A stretch of 64,000 bases of DNA from Streptomyces antimycoticus (GTDB taxonomy: Bacteria; Actinomycetota; Actinomycetes; Streptomycetales; Streptomycetaceae): assembly GCF_005405925.1 (NCBI RefSeq), contig NZ_BJHV01000001.1:5642001-5706000 (forward strand), given 5' to 3'. The notes below the pieces were generated by a model. It saw nothing but the letters and a program-made list of their open reading frames with translations. It had not been told where the DNA came from and made no database searches. The translations under genes and the position numbers were made by a program. This document shows, piece by piece, positions 54,511-63,992 of this stretch; within the stretch, counting starts at the first letter, position 1, and every line of letters begins with the position of its first letter.

Positions 54511-54786
54511 TCCGCACCGGACGCCGCGGGCCGACCCCGCGACGACCCAGACCCGGAAGACCCCCACGCCTGGCACCGCTGTCCACCACCCACGGAGCTA
54601 ATTTGCTCTTGAGGGGTGAAGGTGCGTATGGTGGTAGATCGTTTGATCCCATTTGCCCGGCGCCTCGTAAAAGTGCGCCGTGAGGCGCGTTCCTTGCCAT
54701 CCCGTGGCTGACCGCATAGAGGCGGTCGTTTGCGACAACACGGAGTTTGGGCGCGTGCCGAGACTCCGGAAGGTTTCGCATTTCGC
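54511..54786 (+). promoter_or_regulatory. leader region of DEAD-box helicase gene
   Basis: 276 bp between the lipoprotein and the helicase. AT-enriched near 54600-54670 and able to fold into several short hairpins (for example TGCGCCGTGAGGCGC around 54676-54690). In several bacteria DEAD-box helicase genes have long regulatory leaders tied to cold or autoregulation, so a leader is plausible but not demonstrated. Confidence 0.4.
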
Positions 54787-57066
54787 ATGTCCGTTTCCAC
54801 TGATCACGCCGTCATGCCCGCTGTCGATGAGCCGAACGAGCTGACCGCTCCGGCCGAGCCGTTCGAGCAGGAGCAGCGCGACGAGCAGGCTGAGCAAGCC
54901 GCCACGGAAGCCCCCGAGACCCCTAAGGCGCCCGACATCACTTTCGCCGACCTCGGCCTCCCCGAACAGATCGTCCGCAAGCTGGCGCAGAACGGCGTGA
55001 CGACGCCCTTCCCGATCCAGGCCGCGACCATCCCCGACGCCATGGCCGGGAAGGACATCCTCGGCCGCGGCCGTACCGGCTCCGGCAAGACCCTCTCGTT
55101 CGGTCTTCCGCTGCTGACCACGCTGGCCGGCGGACACACCGAGAAGAAGCGGCCCCGGGGCCTCATCCTGACCCCGACCCGCGAGCTGGCGATGCAGGTG
55201 AGTGACGCGCTGCAGCCTTACGGCGATGTCCTCGGCCTCAAGCTCAAGGTCGTCTGCGGCGGCACCTCGATGGGCAATCAGATCTACGCGCTGGAGCGCG
55301 GTGTCGACATCCTCGTCGCCACCCCGGGCCGACTGCGCGACATCATCGACCGCGGCGCCGCGTCCCTCGACAAGGTCCAGGTCGCCGTCCTCGACGAGGC
55401 CGACCAGATGGCCGACATGGGCTTCCTGCCCGAGGTCACCGAGATCCTGGACCTGGTGCCGCAGGGCGGCCAGCGGCTGCTGTTCTCCGCGACGCTGGAG
55501 AACGAGATCGACAGCCTGGTCAAGCGCTACCTGGTCGACCCGGTCACCCACGAGGTCGACTCGGCACAGGGTGCGGTCACCACGATGACCCACCACGTGC
55601 TCGTGGTGAAGCCGAAGGACAAGGCGCCGGTCACCGCCGCCATCGCGGCGCGCAAGGGCCGCACCATCATCTTCGTGCGGACCCAGCTGGGCTGCGACCG
55701 CGTCGCCGAGCAGCTGTGCGACGCGGGCGTGCGCGCCGACGCGCTGCACGGCGGCATGACGCAGGGCGCCCGTACCCGCACGCTGGCCGACTTCAAGGAC
55801 GGGTACGTCAACGTGCTCGTCGCCACGGACGTCGCCGCGCGCGGTATCCACGTCGACGGCATCGACCTGGTGCTGAACGTGGACCCGGCCGGCGACCACA
55901 AGGACTATCTGCACCGCTCCGGCCGTACGGCCCGGGCGGGCCAGAGCGGCACCGTGGTCTCGCTGGCCCTGCCGCACCAGCGCCGCCAGATCTTCCGGCT
56001 GATGGAGGACGCGGGCGTCGACGCCTCCCGTCACATCGTCGGCGGCGGCGGTGCGTTCGACGAGGACGTGGCCCAGATCACCGGCGCGCGTTCGCTCACC
56101 GAGGTGCAGGCGGAGGCGGCCTCGAACGCGGCCAAGCAGGCCGAGCGCGAGGTGCAGGACCTCAGCCGGGAGCTGGAGCGGGTGCAGCGGCGCGCGGCCG
56201 AGCTCCGCGAGGAGGCCGACCGGTTGTCCGCGCGGGCGGCGCGTGAGCGCGGCGAGACCGTGGCACCGGCGGAGCCCGCGGCCGAGGCCGGGGCGGAGGC
56301 GGTGGCCGCGGCCGCTGTGACGCTGCCGGCGCAGCGTACGGCGGAGCCCGCGACCGTGCCCGCGGTGAAGTCCGCGGACGCCGCCGACGGCGCGGGTGAC
56401 GACGAGGCGCCGCGCCGCTCCTCGTACGACCGTCGGGACAACGACCGGGGTGGCCGTTCCTTCGACCGCCGGGACAACGACCGCGGCTTCAACCGGGACC
56501 GCCGGGATGACCGTCGCGACGACCGCCCGTTCAACCGCGACCGTCGGGACAACGACCGGGGCGGTCGCTCCTTCGACCGCCGGGACAACGACCGCGGCTT
56601 CAACCGGGACCGCCGGGATGACCGTCGCGACGACCGCCGTGACGACCGTGGCGGGGACCGCCCGTTCAACCGCGACCGTCGGGACAACGACCGGGGTGGC
56701 CGTTCCTTCGACCGCCGGGACAACAACGACCGCGACCGTGGCGGCTTCAACCGCGACCGCCGCGACGACCGTGGCAACTTCGGGCGGCGTGACGACCGTG
56801 GCGGCCGTCCGTACGAGCGCCGTGACGACCGAGGCGGCTTCAGCCGTGACCGCCGGGAGAACGACCGGGGTGGCCGTTCCTTCGAGCGCCGCGACCACAA
56901 CCACCGTGGCGGGGACCGCCCGTTCAACCGCGACCGTCGCGACGACCGCCCGGCCCGCCGTGACGACCACCGGGGCGGCTCCACCGGCGGCCGTTCGTAC
57001 GAGCGCTCCGGCGGCTCGTCCTTCGACCGGCGCGCCGACAAGCCGCGCTGGAAGCGCAACGGCTGA
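54787..57066 (+). CDS. DEAD-box ATP-dependent RNA helicase with RDD/RGG-like repeat tail
   Basis: 759 residues. Q motif FADLGLPEQIVRKL..PFPIQ, motif I GRTGSGKT, Ia PTRELAMQ, II VLDEADQM, III SAT, IV IIFVRTQ, V VATDVAARGIHVDG and VI HRSGRTARAG. A coiled-coil segment (about 455-500) follows. The last ~210 residues are repeats of RRDNDRGGRSFD, RRDNDRGFNRD and RRDDRRDD, ending in RRADKPRWKRNG. Such Arg/Gly/Asp-rich tails bind RNA and support condensate formation in other helicases. Likely role in RNA structure remodelling, ribosome assembly or cold response. ATG 54787 opens the conserved N-terminus. Confidence 0.92.
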   Translation: MSVSTDHAVMPAVDEPNELTAPAEPFEQEQRDEQAEQAATEAPETPKAPDITFADLGLPEQIVRKLAQNGVTTPFPIQAATIPDAMAGKDILGRGRTGSGKTLSFGLPLLTTLAGGHTEKKRPRGLILTPTRELAMQVSDALQPYGDVLGLKLKVVCGGTSMGNQIYALERGVDILVATPGRLRDIIDRGAASLDKVQVAVLDEADQMADMGFLPEVTEILDLVPQGGQRLLFSATLENEIDSLVKRYLVDPVTHEVDSAQGAVTTMTHHVLVVKPKDKAPVTAAIAARKGRTIIFVRTQLGCDRVAEQLCDAGVRADALHGGMTQGARTRTLADFKDGYVNVLVATDVAARGIHVDGIDLVLNVDPAGDHKDYLHRSGRTARAGQSGTVVSLALPHQRRQIFRLMEDAGVDASRHIVGGGGAFDEDVAQITGARSLTEVQAEAASNAAKQAEREVQDLSRELERVQRRAAELREEADRLSARAARERGETVAPAEPAAEAGAEAVAAAAVTLPAQRTAEPATVPAVKSADAADGAGDDEAPRRSSYDRRDNDRGGRSFDRRDNDRGFNRDRRDDRRDDRPFNRDRRDNDRGGRSFDRRDNDRGFNRDRRDDRRDDRRDDRGGDRPFNRDRRDNDRGGRSFDRRDNNDRDRGGFNRDRRDDRGNFGRRDDRGGRPYERRDDRGGFSRDRRENDRGGRSFERRDHNHRGGDRPFNRDRRDDRPARRDDHRGGSTGGRSYERSGGSSFDRRADKPRWKRNG

Positions 57067-57174: not shown

Positions 57175-57247
57175 GGGTCATTAGCTCAATTGGCAGAGCA
57201 GTGGACTTTTAATCCATTGGTTCAGGGTTCGAGCCCCTGATGACCCA
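57175..57247 (+). tRNA. tRNA-Lys(TTT)
   Basis: 73-nt cloverleaf on the plus strand: acceptor GGGTCAT/ATGACCC with A73, D-arm GCTCAATTGGCAGAGC, anticodon loop CTTTTAA on GTGGA/TCCAT, T-loop TTCGAGC. No CCA encoded. Confidence 0.95.
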
Positions 57248-57472
57248 CCTCGGAAACCGCAGGCACCATCGGTGACCTGCGGTTTCGTCGTTTCTGAGGG
57301 TCCCATCGCGCGGTCTTCCGCGGCCTGGGATCGGGGTGTTCGCACCCCCGTCGTACAGAAGATCGAGTCTCACTCGACCGGCGCTTGAGCAGATGCCGAA
57401 CGGTACTCGACCACAGAGTCTGAACCTGCTGCGTCTGACCCCGCTGCTCGGAAACGCTAAAGGAGACTCCTC

Positions 57473-58576
57473 GTGCGACTCGCGACAACGATCCGGGGAT
57501 TGATCCCCGTCATGGCGCTGGCGGTATCGGCATGGGCGGTCTCCGCTCCGGCGTCCGCCGAAGGGAAGGGAGGCGGCGGAGGGGCAGGCGAGAAGGCGGC
57601 CCCGGTGCCCTGCGGGGACGTGGCGGCGCTGATCACCGCGGTGAGCGAGGCCAACAGCTCGCCATCGGGCGGCTCCGTCTCCCTGGCCACGGGGTGTGTG
57701 TACACGCTGGGCGCCGCGGCGTACACCGGCGGCCCCAACGGCCCCGACGGGCTGCCGCTCATCACCCGTGACGTGACCATCAGCGGGACCCAAGCGACCA
57801 TCAGACGCAGTGCGGCGGCGGGCGACTTCCGGCTCGCGGAGATCGCGCCCGGTGGAAGCCTTACGGTCAACGGCGTGACCTTCTCGGGCGGCCGGGCGAC
57901 CTCGGGGGCGGGCACCGACGGCGGTGGCATCTTCGACGCGGGCTCACTGAGGCTGATCAACGCCACGGTCACGGGCAACACCGCGAGCAACGTCGGCGGT
58001 GGCATCGAGGTCGCCCCGGGCGGTTCAGCGGTGCTTTCGGCCACGGATGTGACGCACAATTCCGCGGGGGACGGCGGCGGCATCCACGTCAATACGTCGG
58101 CCACCCTCAGCGTCTCGGGCGGCAACATTTCCGACAACACCGCGTCCAGCTCGGGCGGCGGCGTCAGCAACTTCGGAACGACGCTGTTGGGCGCCGTCAC
58201 GGTCGCGCGGAACAGGACCACCAACTTCGAGGGCGGCGGTATCTCCACCGCGGCCGGAGATCTCACGATCAACGGCAGCCGGGTCGCCGAGAACACCGCC
58301 GGCAGTTTCGGTGGCGGTATCGCCAATCTCGGATCCACGCTGCGAGTACAGTCCACCGTGGTGTCCGGCAATATCGCCACACTGAACGGCGGCGGACTTT
58401 TCAATCACGCCGGTACAGCACAATTGATCGGCGACACTGTCACCGGTAATACGGCCAATGGCGGCCAGGGCGGTGGAATCTTCGTCGACGGCGGTTCGGT
58501 GGCGCTCACCGTGACCACGGTCTCCGGAAACAACCCGAACAACTGCGTGCCGGCTCTCACGGGGTGCAGCGCGTAG
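57473..58576 (+). CDS. secreted right-handed beta-helix protein
   Basis: 367 residues. Signal peptide about residues 1-29 (ending SAPASA), a Gly-rich stretch, a CGDVAAL segment, then many coils with the pattern GGGI-x(n)-L-x-(I/V)-x-x-(S/T)-x(V)-x-x-N-x-A (for example GGGIFDAGSLRLINATVTGN, GGGIHVNTSATLSVSGGN). This is a parallel beta-helix, as in pectate lyase-like adhesins and chlamydial Pmp repeats. No sortase or membrane anchor; free secretion is expected. GTG start with AGGAG 8 nt upstream. Heads a group of small secreted proteins; whether it works with them is unknown. Confidence 0.85.
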   Translation: MRLATTIRGLIPVMALAVSAWAVSAPASAEGKGGGGGAGEKAAPVPCGDVAALITAVSEANSSPSGGSVSLATGCVYTLGAAAYTGGPNGPDGLPLITRDVTISGTQATIRRSAAAGDFRLAEIAPGGSLTVNGVTFSGGRATSGAGTDGGGIFDAGSLRLINATVTGNTASNVGGGIEVAPGGSAVLSATDVTHNSAGDGGGIHVNTSATLSVSGGNISDNTASSSGGGVSNFGTTLLGAVTVARNRTTNFEGGGISTAAGDLTINGSRVAENTAGSFGGGIANLGSTLRVQSTVVSGNIATLNGGGLFNHAGTAQLIGDTVTGNTANGGQGGGIFVDGGSVALTVTTVSGNNPNNCVPALTGCSA

Positions 58577-58663: not shown

Positions 58664-59194
58664 TCAGTGCTTGCAGTCCTTCTTCGGCTTGGCCTTGGCC
58701 TTGTGGTGCTTGGCCTTGTGGTGCTTGGCCTTGGGCTTGCAGTTGTCCTTCTTCGGCTTGGCCTTGGCCTTGTGGTGCTTGGCCTTCGGGTCCTTGTGCT
58801 TCGGGTCCTTGGCCTTCTGGTGCTCTTCGTGCTTGGCCCCGTTGTCGGCGATCGCGATGTTGGCGCAGTCGCTGCCGAGACGGATGTCGCCGGTGGGGGC
58901 GAGAGCGGCGTTGCCGGCGGTGGTGATGCCGGTGGTCGAGTTGCAGTCGTTGCTTTGGGACACCGCTCTGCTGTTGGTGAAGTTGACGCAGCCGGAGTTG
59001 GGATTGATGTCGCCGCTGGTGGCGAGGTCGGCGATTTCGACCTCGGGGCCGACAACCGTGTCGCAGGAGTTGCTCTGGCTGGTGCCCCTGTGCTGCGGGA
59101 ACAATCCAGAGGCACTTGCGCTACCTGCGCCGCCCACGACCATTGTGCCCGCGGCCGCCGCGGCCATGAGAGCTACCTTCTTGCTGATCTGCAT
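58664..59194 (-). CDS. secreted two-Cys-repeat protein 1 with Lys/His tail
   Basis: 176 residues. Signal peptide about 1-29 (ends GSASA). Two repeats: SQSNSCDT ... GDINPNSGCVNFTNS and SQSNDCNS ... LAPTGDIRLGSDCANIAI, each with two cysteines about 25-30 residues apart, followed by a ~55-residue tail of KAKHHKAKAKPKKD-type repeats. The tail is extremely basic and could bind anionic wall polymers or nucleic acid (inference). Related by sequence to the proteins at 59462, 60237 and 62030. Not chaplin or rodlin. Function unknown. Confidence 0.82.
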   Translation of the reverse strand: MQISKKVALMAAAAAGTMVVGGAGSASASGLFPQHRGTSQSNSCDTVVGPEVEIADLATSGDINPNSGCVNFTNSRAVSQSNDCNSTTGITTAGNAALAPTGDIRLGSDCANIAIADNGAKHEEHQKAKDPKHKDPKAKHHKAKAKPKKDNCKPKAKHHKAKHHKAKAKPKKDCKH

Positions 59195-59409
59195 CGTGCT
59201 GGTGCCTCCATATCAGGTTCTCCGCGAATGTTCCGCAGACATTCCTCTCAACGATTTTAGGAAGCCCAGGATCCGGGATCGTGGCGAGCGTCACCCGTCC
59301 GCTACAGTAAAGGTATCTTCATTCGGTTGTGTTCTATCGAATTGCATATCTCATGGTGCCCGGGAATGATTCCAGTACGTGGTCGTCCTGTTTAAATGCC
59401 CGGACGTGC

Positions 59410-59449
59410 GAACGCGGCCCCCGGTATATGTACCTCGGAGGCCGCGTTC
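59410..59449 (-). terminator. terminator of Cys-repeat protein 2
   Basis: Stem GAACGCGGCC/GGCCGCGTTC with a 20-nt loop downstream of the minus-strand gene ending at 59462. Confidence 0.55.
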
Positions 59450-59461
59450 ATGACGAGGGTC

Positions 59462-59998
59462 TCAGGACTTCTGGCGACTTTCTGGATTCGCACTCTTTTC
59501 GGCCCGACCGTTCTTCGTGCCGTCCCCGTTCTTTCCGTTTCCATCACCGGTGCCGGCCACGTTGACGCAGTTGGTCTCGTTGGTGACCTCCCCGGGTCCG
59601 AGGCTGATGGGGCCGATCACGGAGGTCGTATCGCAGTCGTTGCTCTGCTTCCTCACACCACCCGACTTGCTGTAGTTGATGCAGTTGGTCCGGTTAGTGA
59701 TCTTGGAACCCGGAGCCAGGGCGACCGTGACAGGACCAATGACGGAGTGGGTCCGGCAACGATTGCTCTGCTCCGTCACCCCTGAGTCGGCGCTGTTGAT
59801 GCAGTCGGTTTCCGTCGTGATGTCGGACGTCGCGAGCGTGACACCGCCCGTGACGGAACTCGTGTTACAGCGGTTGCGCTGGGCGCCCCCGCCGTCGAGC
59901 CCGGAGCTGGGGGCGGCAGCATCAGCACTGCCCGCACCGCCGATCAGTAGCGTACCCATGGCCGCTACAAGAAGCGCCGTTCTCTTACGCATATGCAT
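59462..59998 (-). CDS. secreted two-Cys-repeat protein 2 (three repeats)
   Basis: 178 residues. Signal peptide about 1-28 (MHMRKRTALLVAAMGTLL...GSADA). Three repeats with Cys pairs: QRNRCNT ... TETDCINS, EQSNRCRT ... NRTNCINY and KQSNDCDT ... NETNCVNV, then a Gly/Asn/Lys-rich tail. The start at 59996-59998 has GGAGG 6 nt upstream; the longer frame is not homologous. The NxTxCxN form of the second half-repeat diverges from GDIxxGSxCxN in its paralogues, so it is the most distant member. Function unknown. Confidence 0.82.
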   Translation of the reverse strand: MHMRKRTALLVAAMGTLLIGGAGSADAAAPSSGLDGGGAQRNRCNTSSVTGGVTLATSDITTETDCINSADSGVTEQSNRCRTHSVIGPVTVALAPGSKITNRTNCINYSKSGGVRKQSNDCDTTSVIGPISLGPGEVTNETNCVNVAGTGDGNGKNGDGTKNGRAEKSANPESRQKS

Positions 59999-60139
59999 AA
60001 AGAGCCTCCATGTGATTTTCTTCGCGATATCGGCGAATGTCTGGCCAACGATGACGGGGGGCCGAGGCGCGGAATCGGCGGCAGCAGTACCCGTTCGGCG
60101 CACAAAATCGAAAGCTGTTGCCGATCTTTCCATGTGGCA

Positions 60140-60170
60140 GCGGCCCTGGAAAGGGAGTTTCCAGGGCCGC
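60140..60170. terminator. hairpin near Cys-repeat genes
   Basis: Perfect 13-bp stem GCGGCCCTGGAAA/TTTCCAGGGCCGC with a 5-nt loop, upstream of protein 2 and downstream of protein 3. Confidence 0.5.
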
Positions 60171-60186
60171 TGGTCCCCAACGGGCT

Positions 60187-60226
60187 ATCTCGCAGTGTCC
60201 CCGCGGGCGCGGGGACAATGCGAGAT
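60187..60226 (-). terminator. terminator of Cys-repeat protein 3
   Basis: Two nested stems (ATCTCGCA/TGCGAGAT and TGTCCCCGC/GCGGGGACA) 11 nt after the stop on the minus strand. Confidence 0.65.
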
Positions 60227-60236
60227 GGTCAGCGAC

Positions 60237-60599
60237 TCAGTGACGGGTGTTCTCGTCCTCGATAGCGATGTTGGTGCAGTTGCTGCCGACGGTGATGTCA
60301 CCGGAGGGAGCCAGATTCGCGTTGCCGGTGACGTTGCTGGAGGTGCTCGTGTCGCAGTCGTTGCTCTGAACAACCGGTCCACGGGAGTTGGTGAAGTTGA
60401 TGCAGTCGGAGCCGACGTTGATGTCGCCCGTGGGAGCGAGGGCGGCGTTGCCCGCGGCCATGAGGCCGGTGGTCGTGTCGCACTTGTTGCTCTGAGCGAC
60501 GAAGTCGTCGTGGTTCTGAGCGAGGGCGCCACCTGCACCGCCGATGATCATAGCGCCGGCCGCCGCGGTCAGGAGAATTGCCTTCTTGCCGATGTTCAC
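60237..60599 (-). CDS. secreted two-Cys-repeat protein 3 (minimal form)
   Basis: 120 residues: signal peptide (about 1-27, ends GGALA) and two clean repeats, AQSNKCDT ... LAPTGDINVGSDCINFTNS and VQSNDCDT ... LAPSGDITVGSNCTNIAI, with a short acidic end. This is the simplest member and defines the family unit of about 38-40 residues. GTG start (60597-60599) with GGAGG 6 nt upstream. Very similar to the protein at 62030 (both open with MNIG). Confidence 0.85.
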   Translation of the reverse strand: MNIGKKAILLTAAAGAMIIGGAGGALAQNHDDFVAQSNKCDTTTGLMAAGNAALAPTGDINVGSDCINFTNSRGPVVQSNDCDTSTSSNVTGNANLAPSGDITVGSNCTNIAIEDENTRH

Positions 60600-61149
60600 T
60601 TACTTCCTCCGTCTGGGTTGCTCCGCGAATTCACGGACGCATGACACAACGAAGCTCATCAGTTAAGGCTTCGGGTCGCCAGTCAGCTTCACCCGTCCGG
60701 CATAGTGCGACTCTTCCGGGGCGTGTTCTCCTAGAATCCCGCTAAGGGGGGCCAATGCACGGTCCATTTGGCCCAGCGGACATCTGAATCACTTTTATGA
60801 GAATGCGGGGCAGGCGGTTGTCGGGCAGGCGCCGAGCCGGGTCCGGACGGTTGATGGCCTGGCCATGCCGGGGTGGCGGCTGTCCGGTGCCGGGGTGATG
60901 GCGGGCCGCCGTTCGGGAGACGGCCCCACGCCGGCCGGTCGGGTCGCCCTGCCCCCGGCCCCCGGATTTGTTCGACCGGTCGGACGAGTGATACATCCAG
61001 GCCCTACGACGCAGGAGTGAGTGAGGCACAGTCACACCGACAGCTTCGCGGAACCGCAGCGCGGCGCGTGTTCACGCCGCTACGCTAAGTGCGCGAGGTG
61101 GTCGCCCGGGGGGCGCGGCGAATCAACGCCGGGAGGCGGGAGGAGAGAC
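60600..61149. promoter_or_regulatory. intergenic region, Cys-repeat 3 / DUF6227 gene
   Basis: 550 bp between divergent genes. The first ~130 bp (60600-60730) are relatively AT-rich and should hold the protein-3 promoter. The rest is GC-rich and holds no convincing gene, although an open frame runs into the DUF6227 gene from 61021. No repeats noted. Confidence 0.4.
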
Positions 61150-61909
61150 ATGGGGCACTCACGAGCGGACGGGACCCCGGCCGAGCTGATGGACGGGCTG
61201 CTCGCCCGTGCGCAGAACGGCTTCGAGATCGGCGAGGCGGTGCTGGCCCAGGCGCGGAGCGCCTTGATGCACCAGTCCGAGCTGCGGTCCTGTCGGCAGT
61301 GCAATGAGCGGTGCGGCCAGCTTGGCTACAGCACTTACCGGCATGTCTTCCTGCTCCCCGACGGCAGCAGCCTGCTGCTGTGGGAACTGGAGCACAACAC
61401 CGGCGAGGGCGGCCGCCCGCTGTACGAGCTCTACGCGGACGAGGACGCCCTGACGCTGGCCGAGCGCCGCGTCCATGATCGCCTCGGCGGCGCCCGCTGG
61501 GAGGAGCTCGACGGGTTACCGCTGTGGCTGCCGGACCAGCTGCTGCACACGGCCGAGCCCCTGGAGAGCTCCCGTGCGTATGTGGCCGACAATTCGGCCG
61601 ACCACGCCCGTCGTGTCCTGCGCCGCGCGGAGAACCCGGACCGCCCGGGCGAGGAGACCGAGCGGCTGCTGACGACCGCGTTCGCCCATGACATCGCCCT
61701 CGCGCCCAAGCCCCGGCGCCGCTCCGGCGGTCCCGACGCGACCTGGTGCCGGTTCTATGAGCACGCCTTCCTGCTCGCCGGAGGGGACGAGGTCGTGCTG
61801 TGGGAGCTGGAGCACAACCTCACCCGGGACGGACGGCTGGTGTGCGAGGTGTATCTCGGCGGAGCTCGCGGCGGACCGCCACGCCCGCGCGCTCGGTGTG
61901 GACCTCTGA
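61150..61909 (+). CDS. DUF6227-like protein with internal duplication (possible frameshift near C-terminus)
   Basis: About 252 residues if the C-terminal frame is corrected. Two halves share a pattern: HVFLLPDGSSLLLWELEHNTGEGG with ELYADEDALTLAERRV, and HAFLLAGGDEVVLWELEHNLTRDG with EVYL. Other features: CRQCNERCGQ (possible metal site) and the WLPDQLLHTAEP linker. In the current frame the end is Arg/Pro-rich nonsense to 61923. Removing one base near 61858-61863 gives ELAADRHARALGVDL, parallel to the first half. ATG 61150 with AGGAG upstream. Conserved Streptomyces family, function unknown. Confidence 0.7.
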
Positions 61910-62029
61910 TCCTCCGACAGTAGGTCCTATCGGATGAGGTATGTGCGCGCCTCCTGCGCCCCGCGGATCATCTTTCGTTCAATCTGAGCGTCCGGTTTGT
62001 CCGCGGATCGGCTTTTGTGGAGGAATCAA

Positions 62030-62413
62030 GTGAACATCGGAATGAAGGCTGCTCTCCTGTCCGTAGCGGCGGGCGCTCTGGCACTGGGGAGCGCGGGTGG
62101 AGCGTCCGCCTACGGCGTGGACACCTTCGGAGCGATCCAAACCAACGCGTGTGACACGGCCACCAGCGCCATCATCAGCGGCGCTGTGGGCGCCCCGACC
62201 GGTGACACCAACGCCGGCTCGGAGTGCATCAACTTCACCAACTCCGACGCGGCCGTCCAGAGCAACGACTGTGACACCTCCGCTGGCCCGATCACCGCCT
62301 TGGGCGGGCTCGCCCCGACCGGTGACATCAACGTCGGCAGCAAGTGCGCCAACATCGCCATCGACGACACCCCCAACGGCAACAAGGGCTACGGCGGCGG
62401 CCAAGGCCACTGA
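62030..62413 (+). CDS. secreted two-Cys-repeat protein 4
   Basis: 127 residues. Signal peptide about 1-28 (MNIGMKAALLSVAAG...GGASA), two repeats: IQTNACDT ... APTGDTNAGSECINFTNS and VQSNDCDT ... LAPTGDINVGSKCANIAI, then a short Gly-rich end. GTG start with GGAGG 6 nt upstream. Closest to protein 3; lies on the other strand, separated by the DUF6227 gene. A 14-bp direct repeat (AAGGCCACTGACTC, 62403 and 62417) straddles the stop codon. Confidence 0.85.
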   Translation: MNIGMKAALLSVAAGALALGSAGGASAYGVDTFGAIQTNACDTATSAIISGAVGAPTGDTNAGSECINFTNSDAAVQSNDCDTSAGPITALGGLAPTGDINVGSKCANIAIDDTPNGNKGYGGGQGH

Positions 62414-62547: not shown

Positions 62548-63992
62548 ATGGCCGACACCGACTCGCATCGCGGCCCGGCACCCGCAAGCCTGATGGCGGG
62601 GCGTTACGGACCAGGGAAGCGAGAGAAGCCGGTGCGGGTGCGAGGGAGCAGGGCTCGTACGGGCGCCCGTACGGAGTGGCGTACGGCCTGGCACCGGCTG
62701 AGCCGCCCGCACACCCACCGCCGCCGCACCCGCCTGCGCACGCTCATCGACACCGGCGCCGCGGCCGGTGGTGCCTCCGCCGACGCATTCACCGGCCCCA
62801 CCGCGGGGCCCGGCCCGGCCGAGGACGCTCACCAGGGGCTGCCGGGCCGCCGGGTGGCCCGCTGGGTTCCCGCCATCCTCATCCTCGGCGGCGTCAGCTT
62901 CGACCTGGCCACCCCGTCCGGCTACACCGCCTCGCCCTTCTTCGCCGCCGCCCCTCTGGTCGCCGCGGCGCTCTTACCGCTGCGCCAGACCGTCGTCATG
63001 GCCGTCATCGCCGTCCTCACGACCTGTCTGCTGGCGGAGTTGCACGGTGTGACGGACCCGACCCAGGCGGCCACCGAGATCGTCACGGTCGCCACCGTGA
63101 CCGTGCTGGCGGTGGCGATCAACCGTGTCGTACGCCGCAGCTACCACCGGCTCGCCTCGGCGCGCGGCGTCGCGGAGGCTGCTCAGCGCGCCGTCCTGCC
63201 CGCGCCGCCCGCCCGTCTCGCCGGGCTGGAGATCGCCGCGCGCTACGTACCGGCGGAGAAGTACGCGGCGATCGGCGGTGACCTGTACGCGGTCCAGGAC
63301 ACCCCGCACGGCGTACGGCTGACCGTCGGGGACGTACGCGGCAAGGGGCTGGGGGCCGTGGAGGTCGTGGCGATCCTGCTGGGCTGCTTCCGGGAGGCGG
63401 CGGAGCAGGAGACGACTCTGGAGGCGCTCGTGGGCCGGCTGGAGCGGGCGTTGCAGCGTGAGGGCGCCCGGCGGGCCGACCTGGAGGTGTTCGAGGGTTC
63501 ACGACGGCGGTGGTGGCCGAAATTCCGCGTGGCGACTCCACTCTGCGACTGCTCAACCGCGGCCATCCGGCGCCGCTGCTCATGGCGGAGGACGGAGCGG
63601 TGCGCGCCCTGGAGCCGGAGGCGGCGGCGCTGCCGGTGGGGATGGGGGAGTTGGCCGGGTGGCCGGACCGGGTGATGGAGCTGGGGTTCGAGGAGGGGGA
63701 GACGCTGCTGCTGTTCACGGACGGGGTGACCGAGGCCCGGGACCGCAATGGCGAGTTCTACGACCCGGCGAAGCAGCTGCGCGGTCGCCGCTTCGCCGAT
63801 CCGCAGGAGCTGCTGGACGCGTTGGTGGCCGATGTCGAGCGCCATACGGACGGCGGGACGTCGGACGACATGGCGCTGCTGGCGGTCCGCCGGACCCCGG
63901 CCCGCGGAAACGGACGGGGGAACGGGCGCGACGGCGGTGATGCGCACCGCACCGGCCTTACGGGGGACGGCGACGCTCCCCACCGTCCGTAG
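62548..63992 (+). CDS. PP2C/SpoIIE-family phosphatase, membrane-anchored (frameshifted in this sequence)
   Basis: 481 residues after repair. Basic N-terminus, three to four membrane helices (about 107-190), then a SpoIIE-type phosphatase domain: RYVPAEKYAAIGGDLYAV (first metal-binding Asp), LTVGDVRGKGLGAVE, and after the break LLNRGHPAPLL, LFTDGVTEARD and TSDDMALLAVR. These proteins dephosphorylate anti-anti-sigma factors. The frame is lost at the GGG run 63495-63497; one extra G gives EGFTTAVVAEI, the typical sequence. No anti-sigma partner is adjacent in the window. Confidence 0.87.

Follow-up and report, generated by a model that had tools for sequence, protein, structure and literature searches.

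What role do four neighbouring genes for small, cysteine-containing secreted proteins play in Streptomyces antimycoticus? The genes, here P1 to P4, lie in a 64,000-nucleotide (nt) stretch of contig NZ_BJHV01000001.1 (positions 5,642,001 to 5,706,000, assembly GCF_005405925.1; the window). P1 (P0001, 58664..59194), P2 (P0002, 59462..59998) and P3 (P0003, 60237..60599) are on the minus strand and P4 (P0004, 62030..62413) is on the plus strand; P3 and P4 have GTG start codons. A preliminary description of the window had reported four paralogous secreted proteins made of a signal peptide and two or three two-cysteine units. The genes, their coordinates and strands, the signal peptides (called by eye) and unit counts of two, three, two and two all held. 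Promoter and distribution evidence, added by the present analysis, points to a family of secreted structural proteins made during sporulation for the surface of spores or aerial hyphae, mainly in the S. violaceusniger clade with its rugose spores, a reading whose chances of being right we judge to be about even.

Family members consist of a signal peptide and one, two or three units that read Q-x-N-x-C-D-T, then a variable stretch, then A-P-[TS]-G-D-I-x-[IV]-G-S-x-C-x-N. Five positions, Q, N and C in the first motif and C and N in the second, never vary in alignments of 28 members and of 35 single-unit members. We also collected 140 units (136 distinct) from 105 proteins with a pattern that presupposes the Q/N/C positions, of which the two alignments are free. 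The cysteines enclose 24 residues in 117 of the 140 and 25 in 19; the remaining four have 21, 23 or 26 residues between them. Entropy is 0–0.06 bits at the Q, N, C and C, N positions versus 2.1–2.4 bits at the intervening residues. Such alternate-residue conservation (Q-x-N-x-C, C-x-N) is expected of a β-strand with one polar, cysteine-bearing face, and one disulfide per unit is predicted.

P1 has two units and a Lys/His/Ala/Pro-rich tail, P2 three units of a C-x-T-x-SVIGP type, P3 two units and no tail, and P4 two units and a short Gly/Asn-rich tail. The earlier statement that members differ only in the tail does not hold: the P1–P4 alignment has 27 invariant columns, and P0002, with its three units, shares 35% identity with P0001. 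The count of two cysteines per unit stands and is invariant in the alignments, with the amendment that P0001 adds two further cysteines in its tail. The cluster of four is likewise confirmed, but two more members, single-unit and adjacent, lie elsewhere in the 11.17-megabase genome, near 595 kilobases of the contig (G000:C1). Two-unit paralogues were also seen in S. coffeae, at a distance from the cluster (L034:10001-10324), and in S. himastatinicus, where the paralogue is of the P4 type (L021:8253-8618). An (L)APTG motif sits within the units, with the L present in 28% of them; sortase anchoring through this motif was rejected, as P1–P4 on reading lack a C-terminal hydrophobic segment or sorting signal.

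The timing of expression is suggested by the promoters, which provide the strongest of the new evidence. BldM-WhiI Group II targets of S. venezuelae, including whiE and smeA-sffA, are late sporulation genes according to excerpts of PMC4125116, which also supply the consensus TGnnCCGnnCGGGTGA that we searched 80–135 nt upstream of start codons. P1 has a Group II-like site, TGTAGCGGACGGGTGA (59291..59306, minus strand), with one mismatch, 112 nt upstream of the start codon, and a CGTT box 53 nt after the site start. The P2 site, TGCGCCGAACGGGTAC (60087..60102, minus strand), has two mismatches and lies 104 nt upstream, with CGTT at 52; the P3 site, TATGCCGGACGGGTGA (60689..60704, minus strand), has one mismatch and lies 105 nt upstream, with CGTT at 53. 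The site of P4, AGGTCCTATCGGATGA (61922..61937, plus strand; 108 nt upstream, CGTT at 54), is weaker, with three mismatches, and alone is no better than chaplin-gene controls; its S. himastatinicus counterpart has one mismatch. For all six family genes of the genome the best sense-strand match is 104–112 nt from the start, and both single-unit genes have two mismatches each.

We then compared 68 distinct upstream regions, an incomplete member set that includes one false open reading frame, with controls. At up to two mismatches a site occurs in 49 of the 68, versus none of 68 reverse complements, 6 of 1360 shuffles, none of 33 chaplin genes and none of 10 rodlin genes. At up to three, the count is 51 of 68, versus 2 of 68, 64 of 1360, 7 of 33 and 5 of 10, respectively; judged by these control rates, the three-mismatch level is weak and the two-mismatch level strong. 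All sites in family regions are 103–114 nt from the start codon, and in 49 of 51 regions a CGTT box follows 52–55 nt downstream of the site start. The window holds 23 sites with at most two mismatches, and the three with CGTT at that spacing are those of P1, P2 and P3. Identity among five paralogue promoters of the genome is 0.42–0.78 within the site, 0.18–0.30 upstream of it and 0.20–0.36 at 20–59 nt past its start. By gene type, 6 of 20 P2 genes versus 45 of 47 others have a site at up to three mismatches; reassessing two doubtful P2 starts revealed no Group II-like site.

The CGTT box, with the Group II-like site upstream, resembles the −10 element of σBldN, which recognises CGTAAC-N16-CGTTGA (excerpts of PMC2375139); no CGTAAC −35 element was found by eye in the family promoters. 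A composite of half-site and CGTT matched 63 times in the genome, and its backward control 7 times. Ten of the 63 were inspected: one (L203) was on the wrong side, and the other nine had neither a family member nor a clear sporulation gene beside them. The family genes share the promoter-site consensus of whiE and smeA-sffA, but those targets serve pigment synthesis and chromosome segregation, and BldM-WhiI control of the family is proposed from sequence alone.

Who carries the family? Searches of 5.8 billion proteins returned 28, 96 and 51 overlapping matches. The 96 include P0107–P0121, secreted proteins of 83–90 residues with a near-identical signal peptide and, as a rule, two cysteines (VQxCSxxTGDI ... 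NNTVVISVSCFNT); they lack the two-cysteine unit, those with names are from Streptomyces, and they apparently form a sister family outside the membership. Named matches are from Streptomyces, plus three Kitasatospora proteins (P0146–P0148) that are clear two-unit members; plasmid and phage records held no match to P0003. A scan of named-species genomes found 17 loci in 16 genomes, with carriers including S. hygroscopicus, S. himastatinicus, S. violaceusniger, S. iranensis, S. samsunensis, S. sabulosicollis, S. antioxidans, S. milbemycinicus and S. sparsogenes. The S. violaceusniger clade is monophyletic and defined by rugose spores, and S. milbemycinicus and S. sparsogenes are placed close to it (both from excerpts of PMC8407293 and PMC8137480); the named Streptomyces carriers belong to or border this clade.

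A genome search for copy number and neighbours, which the preliminary description had suggested, matched 21 of 392 Streptomyces genomes at E ≤ 0.001 and mapped a conserved locus order. Eleven matches are strong (best E ≤ 1e-42). The ten weak ones (E 3e-5 to 1e-3) all begin within the signal peptide (profile position 1–5), and seven end before position 60. Four of the ten weak loci (G128, G253, G124 and G219) were inspected with the unit pattern and tblastn; they contained no two-cysteine unit and were rejected as carriers. With four of the ten covered by this inspection, the count of 11 may be slightly low.

Known coat components are depleted in the carriers. Rodlins occur in 274 of the 392 genomes, in none of the 11 strong carriers versus 274 of the 381 others. 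SapB is absent from the 11 and present in 33 of 57 other genomes, a comparison set of 14 without and 43 with rodlins, picked by handle number and including weak-match G128, G253 and G058. Ten carriers have three chaplin domains and the eleventh has one, the fewest among the 68 genomes counted; the 57 others have 4–15. Excerpts of a review (PMC4255298) likewise describe 'S. hygroscopicus' ATCC 53653, here S. himastatinicus, as lacking rodlins and a SapB-type cluster. SapB/AmfS (NF033212) is a streptomycete coat component, the role proposed here for the family, but is a modified lantipeptide (excerpts of PMC4255298) and is absent from all 11 carriers.

The locus has a conserved frame. Carriers have, in order, a helicase gene, tRNA-Lys, a β-helix gene, P1-P2-P3 in reverse orientation, a conserved gene, P4 in some cases, and a SpoIIE-type (PP2C) phosphatase gene; the position of the transfer RNA (tRNA) was checked in the window and at four further carrier loci. 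In the window these are a DEAD-box helicase gene (54730..57066, plus strand), also found in cluster-less genomes; tRNA-Lys (ttt) (57175..57249, plus strand), after which the P1–P4 block comes; a gene for a β-helix-like secreted protein (57473..58576, plus strand), assigned by eye and unmatched in Pfam at E up to 1; and a conserved gene, DUF61k (61111..61923, plus strand), with no assigned function and a tentative start codon. At least three family genes, including the triple-unit P2, are grouped together in 16 of 16 named loci (L018–L033), whereas the P4 position is occupied in some relatives only. The phosphatase gene (62548–63992, plus strand) is in two reading frames that switch near 63480–63510; in relatives with both parts matched, the gap between them is 30–36 nt and a multiple of three, and the two frames reflect either a frameshift in this S. 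antimycoticus strain or a sequencing error.

In the cluster-less genome G058, among the nearest of its kind (helicase identity 89%), helicase, tRNA-Lys, conserved gene and phosphatase are directly consecutive, which suggests that either the cluster was inserted behind the tRNA gene or the outgroup lost it. In 10 of 10 loci examined (L070–L079) this tRNA-Lys(ttt) is found close to the helicase gene, and the downstream neighbours differ between carriers and non-carriers; the site is possibly a variable insertion site.

Trees of the locus, used without support values, conflict. In the flank tree, which does not include NEAU-Y11, and in the β-helix tree, the window groups with G384 and S. niphimycinicus (98 and 96%; 90 and 91% identity). 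In the P1–P3 tree it groups with S. himastatinicus (75% identity, versus 63% to G384). Synonymous distance to G384 is 0.04–0.15 in the helicase, conserved, phosphatase and β-helix genes and 0.38–0.79 in P1–P3. By these data the three-gene core is a divergent allele that was exchanged as a block, an instance of recombination at a putative surface-protein locus. The ratio of nonsynonymous to synonymous change in six comparisons, some of them between exchanged alleles, is 0.82–1.05 for P1 and 0.54–0.70 for P3. Allele exchange and fast change are compatible with a surface protein. The secreted β-helix protein beside the cluster, pointed out in the preliminary description, is indeed conserved there in 15 of 16 named loci; since its gene has no matching sense-strand promoter site and took no part in the allele exchange of P1–P3, it need not be a partner.

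Could the family instead be a divergent branch of the chaplins, with the same layout and motifs (N-x-C and G-[NS]-x-C-x-N) and decayed similarity? Some public records name members 'Chaplin domain-containing' or 'DUF320 domain-containing', and both groups are small secreted Streptomyces proteins with two-cysteine domains, one or two in chaplins (PF03777, ChpA-H), and the motifs N-x-C and C-x-N. The chaplin domain is hydrophobic, whereas the new unit is polar and rich in Gln, Asn, Thr and Gly; the collected chaplins have 17 residues between the cysteines rather than the usual 24, and the family has no C-terminal sorting signal. None of 16 members matched PF03777 (four scanned at E up to 1, eight at E up to 10 and four at E up to 1, with HMMER filters that discard most weak matches). 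Against a reference set of 35 chaplin domains, hhalign gave a probability of 2% over the six common columns, G-[NS]-x-C-x-N; when the HMMER filters were switched off, the chaplin model scored 2 of 136 units, and the unit model 0 of 35 chaplins, above the 95th percentile of cysteine-fixed shuffles. Chaplin homology was rejected on these results, and the profile and shuffle tests lend no support to the chaplin and DUF320 names; with no Group II-like site at two mismatches in the chaplin genes either, a chaplin branch appears quite improbable. Rodlins (NF041022, RdlA/RdlB) are secreted streptomycete surface proteins of comparable size, and the likeness of LVPIQDINVL to LAPTGDINVGS is striking by eye. 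Kinship was nonetheless rejected: against 14 rodlins, hhalign gave 0.1%, and 3 of 136 units and 1 of 14 rodlins exceeded the 95th percentile in the shuffle tests. No scanned member matched NF041022.

By these profile comparisons the family is detectably neither chaplin nor rodlin, in agreement with the first reading of the window. Pfam and NCBIfam scans of selected members gave no acceptable match, and a PDB search found no solved relative (the best match, a cytochrome at E 0.13, is regarded as chance); the preliminary description would have been refuted by placement in a named, characterised family, and these searches gave none. Its view that the family is undescribed stands in these respects and needs qualifying for the records already named chaplin or DUF320. 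In the literature searched, with subscription journals outside coverage, the exact string QSNDCDT was not found with Streptomyces, and no paper was on the subject, judged by title, for rugose/chaplin/spore or violaceusniger/rodlin. The proteins are candidate streptomycete surface coat proteins, but of a separate family.

A different possibility is that the proteins diffuse away, for example as antimicrobial, competition or signalling peptides that happen to be expressed in sporulating colonies; an arms race against competitors or phages would then have shaped their alleles, and the proteins would form no coat. Small, cysteine-containing, paralogous proteins that evolve fast, are exchanged as a block and show no anchoring signal would suit such a role. 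The repetition of the unit one to three times per protein does not, and an invariant Q/N/C at every second residue fits a structural sheet; no immunity or export gene is among the mapped neighbours (other nearby genes are not annotated), and the promoter is of the late-sporulation type. We consider diffusible proteins unlikely. The family might also belong to the surface or wall of aerial hyphae and have nothing to do with spore ornament, for instance as an adhesin or a phage-exposed layer that history has limited to the clade. The Kitasatospora members and the allele exchange agree with this, as do five genomes that manage without rodlin, SapB and the family; the late-sporulation-type promoter and the coincidence of the family, as far as carriers are named, with the rugose-spored clade and the species closest to it make it rather improbable.

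Several observations weigh against a sporulation-stage structural role. The promoter consensus is that of S. venezuelae. The 68 upstream regions are not independent, because orthologues and paralogues share ancestry, and 17 of them have no site at three mismatches (14 of P2, two of P4 with four mismatches, and the false open reading frame). Sites with at most one mismatch number 282 genome-wide, versus 109 in the control, so a single site means little and the argument rests on the fixed position and the second box; the genes beside the 14 perfect sites of the genome include no clear sporulation gene. Two AlphaFold models are of low confidence (mean predicted local distance difference test scores of 45.1 and 47.7); that of P3, at 47.7, has two strands per unit, and the other is uninformative. 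Kitasatospora has members, and S. huangiella, which has been compared with S. coffeae as a near relative and is known here by description alone, is described as smooth or wart-like, with no rugose spiral spores (excerpts of PMC12502620). The carriers are essentially one clade, so that their coat depletion counts as one coincidence, not eleven. Finally, G007, G009, G031, G040 and G061 lack rodlin, SapB and the two-cysteine family alike, so the family is not an obligatory replacement for rodlin or SapB.

If the proteins are nevertheless structural and made during sporulation, BldM-WhiI, with a σBldN-like −10 box, would turn the genes on in sporogenic hyphae, and Sec would export the products. 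Each unit would fold as a β-hairpin with one disulfide and with Gln, Asn and Cys on one face. Units would then line up next to one another and form a sheet or fibre layer on spores of strains that have few chaplins and neither rodlins nor SapB; this layer may be attached to the wall by the cationic P1 tail. The proposal that the secreted proteins end up in a layer of the spore draws on promoter, clade and allele exchange. The wall association and self-assembly that the preliminary description had envisaged as possible are hypothetical; its interpretation as a whole is partly supported.

Spore ornament is a long-standing character for classifying streptomycetes. No gene is known to produce this ornament, and none is named in the literature titles searched. 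A direct role of the family in rugose ornament is conceivable but doubtful on present sequence evidence. Equally tentative is a wider scenario, in which rugose streptomycetes lost rodlins and SapB, kept minimal chaplins and gained a non-homologous, BldM-WhiI-driven family of disulfide-hairpin repeat proteins that builds the outer spore layer and its rugose ornament, with core alleles exchanged between species. The family offers a small set of candidate genes, whose stage of expression is predicted, in a clade depleted of known coat proteins; if the proposed reading is true, the chaplin names that some of these proteins bear in databases would be corrected.

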